Assembly (NCBI GenBank): GCA_023957315.1
Contig: JAMLHE010000006.1
Coordinates: 196,408 to 260,407 of the forward strand
Source of the DNA: Candidatus Kapaibacterium sp.
GTDB lineage: Bacteria; Bacteroidota; Ignavibacteria; Kapaibacteriales; UBA2268
DNA length: 64,000 bases
Reading direction: 5' to 3'
The translations under genes and the position numbers were made by a program. The notes under the pieces are model-generated. The model worked only from the letters and a program-made list of their open reading frames with translations. It did no database searches and had not been told where the DNA came from. Positions 23,077 to 24,563 of this stretch are shown in pieces. Position 1 is the first letter of the stretch. Every line of letters begins with the position of its first letter.

Positions 23077-24087
23077 AGGACGAGACAGTGCCGATAATTT
23101 AAATTGCATATCAGTAGGAAACAAAGGTAGTGGCATGGTAAATGCTCGAACAACCGACGGAGGTTATAATTGGTTCATTCAAACTGCTGATACACAAAAA
23201 GTTGTATACAACGATAAAGGACAAGTAGTAGAAGTAATTGGCACAAAATATAAAGGAGCACGTTGCTTAGACTATGTCACTCCGGATTTTGCCGTAATTG
23301 GTCATATTGAAGGTCAAATTACAATATCAAGAGATGGTGGTGATTCATGGGATTCACTCAGTTTAAATACAATTCAAGATATAAAAATTATTAGATTCGC
23401 AGACTCATTATCAGGAATTGCGCTTACAAACAATTTTATTTTTTTAACAACAGATGGTGGGGTCACTTGGGAAAATATTACAAGTAATCTTAATTATTCC
23501 GGTGCTATATATTTCCAATCAGCATTTATGAGAGATGATTTTATTTATGCAGGAGGATTTTTTTCATTGGATAAAGGGAATACTTGGACAAAAAGTAATC
23601 CAATATTGAATATTAACGGTATGCATGGTGTTAATTTTATAAATAATTACGAGGGTTGGTGTTCTGGGAGACGTCAGATTGTACCAAATCAATTTCAATA
23701 TGTCGATGTTATTCTCCATACTACAAATTCGGGATTAGACTGGGTGACTCAATTGGATACAGTTTTAGAACCTCATTTTCCATTGACGGGTGATATATAT
23801 TTTGCAAATAGTTCAGAAGGTTTGGCTTATGGTGAAGGTGGAAAGATATGGCGTACAAGTGATGGCGGTCAATATTGGGATTTAGATAAATCTTTTCCAA
23901 TTGAACAAAGTGACCATTTTACAAAATTGGCTTTTCCTAATGGGAATTTAAACAAAATACTTGCAAATGTTTATTTTATTGGTGATATCTGGATGTTTAC
24001 TGACCCAACATCTATAGAGGAAAATGTAATAGGTACAAATGATATGAGTATTTTCCCCAATCCCGCAAGCGAATATATTACAATTAC

Positions 24088-24123
24088 GAAACCTTCCGAA
24101 GGTTTCGAACCTTCGGAAGTTTC
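24088..24123. repeat. Hairpin repeat inside T9SS sorting-domain codons (first)
   Basis: GAAACCTTCCGAAGGTT (24088-24104) is an inverted copy of AACCTTCGGAAGTTTC (24108-24123) with one bulged base and a TCG loop. Each arm is itself a near-palindrome of the form ACCTTC-N-GAAG, related to the intergenic AGACTTC-N-GAAGTCT family. In the reading frame it adds KPSEGFEPSEVS between two strands of the sorting domain without breaking it. Confidence 0.85.
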
Positions 24124-24172
24124 CGGTGTTCAAATTTTCAATACTTTGGGTGAATGTGTTCTTAAGGAATCA

Positions 24173-24205
24173 ATTCATCCGATGACTCCAAGTCATCGGA
24201 TGAAT
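24173..24205. repeat. Hairpin repeat inside T9SS sorting-domain codons (second)
   Basis: ATTCATCCGATGACT (24173-24187) and AGTCATCGGATGAAT (24191-24205) are perfect 15-bp inverted arms around CCA. In frame the element encodes IHPMTPSHRMN, just before NVEHLPSGVYYL. The sequence differs from the first hairpin, but the design, two near-palindromic arms centred on CCGA/TCGG, is similar. Confidence 0.87.
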
Positions 24206-24284
24206 GTAGAACATTTACCATCAGGCGTGTATTATCTGCGTATTGGTAGCAGGACGCAGATGTTTGTGAAGATGTGACAGATGA

Positions 24285-24299
24285 AGACTTCGGAAGTCT
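24285..24299. repeat. 15-bp palindromic repeat AGACTTC-G-GAAGTCT
   Basis: Seven-base arms around a single G, 7 bp after the stop codon of the truncated T9SS gene. It is one of six copies in the window (centre base G here). Confidence 0.85.
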
Positions 24300-24348
24300 A
24301 ATTTTCTAAAGTATATGAATGTAATAAGCTTCTTGAAGTTAATTATAA

Positions 24349-24363
24349 AGACTTCCGAAGTCT
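24349..24363. repeat. 15-bp palindromic repeat AGACTTC-C-GAAGTCT
   Basis: Exact reverse complement of the copy 50 bp upstream (centre C rather than G), so the two copies are inverted relative to each other and could pair into a larger stem. Confidence 0.85.
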
Positions 24364-24374
24364 AACTCCAAATT

Positions 24375-24503
24375 TCTGAACTATGATTTGTTTGATTAAG
24401 ATGATTTGTGTGATTTTCAATATTGAATTCATATTCATCATATCAATCACACAAATCTTATGAATCATAGTTCAGACAATAATCACAAAAATCATAGTTC
24501 AGA
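24375..24503. repeat. Inverted repeat built on TCTGAACTATGATT
   Basis: TCTGAACTATGATT (24375-24388) recurs inverted as AATCATAGTTCAGA at 24463-24476 and again at 24490-24503. The first pair extends inward: GATTTGTGTGATT near 24403-24415 matches AATCACACAAATC near 24445-24457, with small internal indels. The whole could fold as a long imperfect hairpin. With the two 15-bp palindromes beside it, this fills the 286-bp gap between the truncated T9SS gene and the lipoprotein gene at 24564; no ORF or RNA gene is seen there. Confidence 0.8.
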
Positions 24504-24504
24504 C

Positions 24505-24541
24505 ATAAAAAAAAGACTGACTCTTTGAAAGTCAGTCTTTT
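24505..24541 (-). terminator. Bidirectional terminator between convergent genes
   Basis: AAAAGACTGAC (24511-24521) pairs with GTCAGTCTTTT (24531-24541) around a 9-base loop. Read on the minus strand, the stem is followed by eight T, matching the end of the lipoprotein transcript at 24564. The plus strand also ends in TTTT. Confidence 0.83.
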
Positions 24542-24563
24542 ATTATAAAATTTCTAAGCAAGA

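Follow-up and report, generated by a model that had tools for sequence, protein, structure and literature searches.

In-frame palindromes, probably REP/REPIN-like elements moved by RAYT transposases, in two loops of T9SS type A sorting domains

The window analysed here, a 64-kb stretch of DNA from a genome of 3.55 Mb (designated G000 and placed in the genus of its relative G002), contains a gene whose product ends in a T9SS sorting domain. The C-terminus was matched by both PF18962 (47.8 bits over residues 306-378; cut-off 27) and TIGR04183 (34.8 bits; cut-off 23), above the curated cut-offs in each case, indicating membership of type A. An AlphaFold2 model of the domain showed seven strands but had a low-confidence mean pLDDT of 60.8; an Ig-like sandwich is expected for type A. 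The strand numbering used below, with loop A as b2-b3 and loop B as b4-b5, is taken from this low-confidence model. The features of the locus are as follows.

23135..24277, plus strand: host gene (380 aa), with a YCF48/BNR-type passenger and a T9SS type A sorting domain
24050..24268, plus strand: sorting domain (CTD) of the palindrome-carrying subfamily, PF18962 residues 306-378, strands after the low-confidence AlphaFold2 model
24090..24122, plus strand: palindrome A in loop A, KPSEG family, 15+3+15, peptide KPSEGFEPSEV; the same family adjoins the RAYT gene of genome G012
24173..24205, plus strand: palindrome B in loop B, IHPMT family, perfect 15+3+15, peptide IHPMTPSHRMN; the same family lies both beside and inside the RAYT genes of genomes G017 and G021
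24281..24365, plus strand: intergenic element directly after the stop codon, with two AGACTTC[G/C]GAAGTCT palindromes 64 bp apart; recurs behind other CTD genes
24508..24544, plus strand: putative terminator-like hairpin, arm 15 with 1 mismatch, loop 7, next to a T run

An earlier sequence-only reading had placed two hairpins within a single T9SS sorting domain without loss of frame, and we found both of them in frame in the PF18962 domain of this gene. Its 17-bp hairpin at 24088-24123 was roughly right: hairpin A has 15-bp arms with one mismatch around a 3-nt loop (24090-24122) or, when widened to 24087-24125, 18-nt arms that are 89% complementary. The perfect 15-bp hairpin at 24173-24205 and its peptide were as that reading described them. 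Eight hairpins were listed across the window, another strong one (2234-2261, 12-bp arms) lying within a different ORF.

Among the 150 PF18962 matches listed for G000, 29 carried a hairpin whose net arm measured at least 10. Almost all of these belong to a single subfamily with the strand sequences SEYIEI, EIKIFNTLGECV and RIDISHLPRGVYYLRIG; loop A falls between SEYIEI and EIKIFNTLGECV, and loop B between EIKIFNTLGECV and RIDISHLPRGVYYLRIG. A search of six relatives, each from the same genus or family, gave 324 matches, part of which were analysed. The domain set comprised 170 domains of at least 55 bits, selected from 235 profile matches in 7 genomes, and the 136 of them that came from the relatives showed the same two loops, with overlapping yet different sets of palindromes. 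A hairpin score of at least 12 was reached by 101 of the 170 domains, as compared with 22 of 3400 synonymous-codon resamplings of the same proteins, none of 156 segments taken upstream in the same genes (those among 170 that were available and stop-free), and 1 of 117 further sorting domains, drawn from G000 alone; the lone positive of the latter was judged to be a contig-end fragment (C28:4165). Ancestral protein sequence with incidental palindromy is ruled out by the resampling. At a score of at least 9, hairpins were found in 27/34 domains of G000, 14/24 of G001, 31/35 of G002, 6/6 of G015, 5/17 of G020, 12/18 of G021 and 26/36 of G034. The hairpin centres lay in the loops in 176 of 177 cases (108 in loop A and 68 in loop B). 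Within 369 kb of G000, a sample picked around CTDs with genes from a simple ORF caller, hairpins scoring at least 12 occurred 32 times in sorting domains (33.2 kb), 36 times in intergenic DNA (40.8 kb) and once in the remaining coding sequence (295 kb), so that their density in the sorting domains was about that of intergenic DNA. Because the copies are not independent, these enrichment counts overstate the number of insertions.

The loops are common to dozens of paralogous sorting domains and are filled by various peptides. Loop A in G000 holds INPTVNRRVD, KPSEGFEPSEG, QTSEVSKTSEV or RWTPxSRWSPS, and loop B holds VETRHAVSLQ, IHPMTxSHRMN, HPSTGSGSG, ALRQAQG or PLNPPLPKRE; the relatives add NKGLQPFA, SIGACSNE, VETGLRPVST, DVQHLGDVGHL and others. 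We count about ten distinct kinds of palindrome, in many combinations; families were assigned with our own peptide patterns, which left 32 loops A and 26 loops B of 169 unclassified. Some families are akin, KPSEG and QTSEV sharing a TTCSGAA core, and VETRHAV and VETGLRP a GTAGAGAC foot. A 5' GTAG/GTGG foot stands at both ends of the VETRHAV family and is absent from the 33-bp families. The elements in the CTDs are mostly 20-42 bp long, and, like REPs, they are short palindromes that are repeated in the genome and common to relatives. The sites read for context in G000 were 39 of 44 for ACTTCSGAAGT, 14 of 19 for CCCTTCGACARGCTCAGGG and 6 of 9 for IHPMT. A search of the genome and its relatives for the peptides and hairpins, as the sequence-only reading had proposed, yielded many families at the same two loops; that reading had not mentioned the many paralogs and families, the RAYT genes with the same palindromes, or the conversion that moves loops.

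We found several of these palindromes at RAYT transposase genes. The RAYT of G017, which matched NF047646 with 54.5 bits, below the cut-off of 80, has copies of the IHPMT family at both ends and internally, and its relatives occurred in 14 of 60 genomes. The IHPMT palindrome itself, CATCCGATGA(n)TCATCGGATG, was present in 14 of the 60 genomes, with 39 copies in G017, and a reversed control gave no matches in the same genomes. Strong hairpins lay within 500 bp of the RAYT in 13 of 20 loci (37 in 29.5 kb), and none was found in 31.2 kb beyond 700 bp of these loci; 7 of the 20 loci had none, and the RAYT of G002 has no strong hairpin nearby. An 11-mer in common with the palindromes of the CTD loops was seen at 7 of the 20 loci, as compared with a mean of 0.32 and a maximum of 2 for shuffled arms (200 rounds). 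A cognate RAYT was found for the IHPMT (G017, G021), KPSEG (G012), RWTP (G034) and DVQHLGDV (G017) families and for the GTAGAGAC family (VETRHAV/VETIHEL), with a VETIHEL-like match in G005; the match at G015 concerned one domain only. A RAYT of G001 contains VETRHAVSLQ in frame, with DNA identical to that of a CTD loop B, and its motifs NHIH and YIVNNP are consistent with subclass 2.4 as set out in the accessible part of PMC6006769.

In a scan of named genomes the IHPMT pattern occurred in 120 stretches, 9 of which contain a RAYT relative; among the 9 are Bacteroidales bins and Alkaliflexus imshenetskii DSM 15055, and, judging from the coordinates, the element lies beside or inside the RAYT relative in most of the 9. 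The RAYT genes of four Bacteroidales loci (L425, L455, L485 and L489) and of G017 (L462) each contain an in-frame copy of their own palindrome, similarly positioned behind the HuH strand and read as SHPMT/THPMT or SSDD; the copy may correspond to the short insertion that has been described for subclass 2.6. In the genome of the window, no RAYT was detected with the G017 query, and the matches to NF047646 and PF01797 were only of IS200 size. The window's genome is therefore without a clear RAYT, and copying there is probably over or continues only by recombination. Pfam Y1_Tnp was considered as a mobiliser; it gave three IS200-size matches in the window's genome and none in G001, and was not used as evidence.

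The IHPMT element is also found outside the sorting domains. REPs are mostly extragenic; of the 26 copies examined in G017, 7 lie within ORFs of more than 200 aa, in two frames; these ORFs include a histidine kinase, a guanylate-cyclase protein and the RAYT, and the one element is read as IHPMT or SSDD in unrelated proteins. Another element is likewise read in two frames, as HPSTGSGSG or ALRQAQG. The other frame of the IHPMT element is used in a CTD loop B of G011, next to a domain with KPSEG in loop B, and in a CTD loop A of G017, a paralog of which in the same stretch is without the element. Two proteins, a histidine kinase (L374) and the product of L413, have two tandem in-frame copies in the SSDD frame.

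The loops were compared between 35 ortholog pairs, defined as reciprocal best matches by the passenger part with at least 75% identity over 100 aa. The loop A family differed in 26 pairs, agreed in 8 and was unclassified in 1; for loop B the corresponding numbers were 21, 11 and 3, pairs with one loop unclassified being counted as different. The window gene has three orthologs, none with empty loops: that of G020, which is 62% identical, has the same two families, with the same peptides and near-identical palindromic DNA, and those of G015 and G021 have other families. Recurrence of the same peptides in unrelated codons, which the sequence-only reading had named as a sign of ancestral protein sequence, was not seen. 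In one pair with a rare VQIYDVLG backbone, one species has INPTVN and the other KPSEG, and between well-matched strands an INHTVN palindrome is present in G000 (C5:270505) and missing in G002 (C12:21311). Inspection of 21 pairs showed 89% identity for the 200 bp upstream and about 80% for the strands flanking the loops. Since the strands are less alike than the upstream DNA, conversion between sorting domains is taken to be part of the process, and many loop swaps would be larger conversion tracts rather than clean insertions. A backbone tree of 169 of the 170 domains (144 nt) required at least 40 and 49 changes of loop family, which conversion blurs, and was given no weight. Contigs C33, C36 and C41 of G021 carry isolated sorting-domain fragments in open frames of 55-66 aa, possibly relics or donors for gene conversion.

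These data bear on an alternative that we regard as unlikely, in which each palindrome entered a CTD once long ago and was afterwards spread by duplication and gene conversion, with no further mobility. The INPTVN family would fit it, all of its 17 sites in G000 being coding and inside CTDs; for INPTVN, NKGLQP, HPSTGSGSG and others, no RAYT partner was seen among the RAYT loci examined. For INPTVN, with no site outside CTDs and no such partner, copying of whole CTDs is an equally good explanation, and plain mobility is not claimed for this family. The mosaic identity among orthologs and paralogs and the lack of a clear RAYT in the window's genome are also consistent with copying. It is, however, at odds with IHPMT, which is read in two frames in loop B and, in another genus, sits in loop A, with KPSEG in loop B of G011, and with palindromes inside RAYT genes and unrelated proteins.

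We therefore prefer the hypothesis, which we consider likely, that the two hairpins are REP/REPIN-like elements moved by RAYT that entered in frame in two long, dispensable CTD loops of one type A subfamily. The RAYT matches, the two reading frames and the loop differences between orthologs all argue for the earlier proposal of small mobile palindromes that supply peptide loops to the CTD. REP/REPIN-like palindromes would be small, non-autonomous DNA moved by RAYT/TnpA_REP, whose action would bring them, repeatedly and in frame, into loops b2-b3 and b4-b5. The insertions would survive if the secretion signal withstands changes in both loops, the loops being either targeted or only tolerant of insertion. 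Gene conversion among dozens of paralogous CTDs may then spread and shuffle the loops, and old copies would decay slowly.

Two further explanations fare worse. Selection might keep the hairpins as mRNA structures, for instance for translation pacing or 3'-end protection, and the perfect stems of 54 of 93 distinct CTD hairpins, together with stem variation on both arms, could be read in this way. This seems quite improbable to us, as mismatches tolerated by RNA are not favoured (A-C 18 versus G-U 10), decayed copies exist (for example, loop B of G000:C8:154054), and 69 of the 170 domains are without a hairpin scoring at least 12. Template switching at small quasi-palindromes, a known mutational process, could keep stems perfect and create palindromes in place, with loops that merely tolerate the result, but the same sequences recur in numerous genera, in intergenic DNA and at RAYT genes, which makes this highly improbable.

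The RAYT-moved elements preferred here have much in common with known systems. In-frame REPs (PMC3733652, PMC6006769) and Rickettsia palindromic elements (RPEs; PMC10969869) are already described in the accessible parts of these papers. As in REP/REPIN and RAYT systems there (PMC6006769), the palindromes are short, the transposase gene is flanked by its own palindromes, and there are many families per genome. The GTAG double foot of the VETRHAV family and the in-frame REPs inside the transposase gene resemble subclass 2.4, for which the same part of PMC6006769 describes both; the absence of a foot from the 33-bp families recalls the atypical structures that flank subclass 2.6 there. Unlike in the REP/REPIN systems of that text, the elements are concentrated in coding DNA for a single secretion-signal domain, in two loops and at roughly intergenic density, and several families are without a transposase partner in our data. 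Intragenic GTAG and CGTC REPs occur in frame in many proteins, whose loops and linkers were already suggested to be tolerant in the available portion of PMC3733652; those REPs are scattered over unrelated proteins, whereas here many families trade places in one domain family. RPEs, as described in PMC10969869, are likewise palindromic repeats in frame in protein genes, but they are about 150 bp long, keep one conserved peptide frame and lie in many unrelated genes. Most of the present elements measure 20-42 bp; some of them have two reading frames in use, and several correspond to palindromes of RAYTs.

The apparently new feature is the hot spot, where many families of palindromes occupy two loops of one secretion signal and turn over fast. 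We found nothing in the literature on T9SS or sorting domains together with palindromic elements, most subscription journals and preprints being outside the scope of the search. According to the accessible part of PMC11285876, the b3-b4 loop and the C-terminus of CTD structures are essential, other loops vary widely, and an 11-residue replacement in b5-b6 had no effect; the palindrome loops map, with low confidence in the model, to b2-b3 and b4-b5. Cleavage of the CTD after export is possible in cultured Bacteroidota (PMC4804311, as far as its available text goes), which would further lower the cost of altered loops. With these probably mobile palindromes in place, the two loops vary from one species to another, and the remainder of the protein is largely conserved. 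'Extragenic' palindromes live in coding DNA at about intergenic density where a protein has dispensable loops, and the many loop variants form a natural experiment that maps the changeable parts of the T9SS signal. Whether mobile repeats do no more than shelter at permissive sites in coding DNA or supply material for new peptide loops is a testable question. It is doubtful that palindromes and CTD gene conversion form a working loop-diversification system, faster than protein change and used by selection; if so, diversified loops might serve in choosing a shuttle, in attaching to surfaces or in evading phage or predators.

Finally, the 3' flank of the window gene contains further repeats. The two palindromes behind its stop codon (24285-24299 and 24349-24363) show the same layout behind other CTD genes of the genome, and the element of about 85 bp that contains them trails the stop codons of several such genes, as if domain and 3' flank had been copied jointly. 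Farther downstream, at 24375-24500, inverted repeats that are imperfect and AT-rich represent a separate repeat family; their motif CTGAACTATGATTT recurs behind other genes of the genome.
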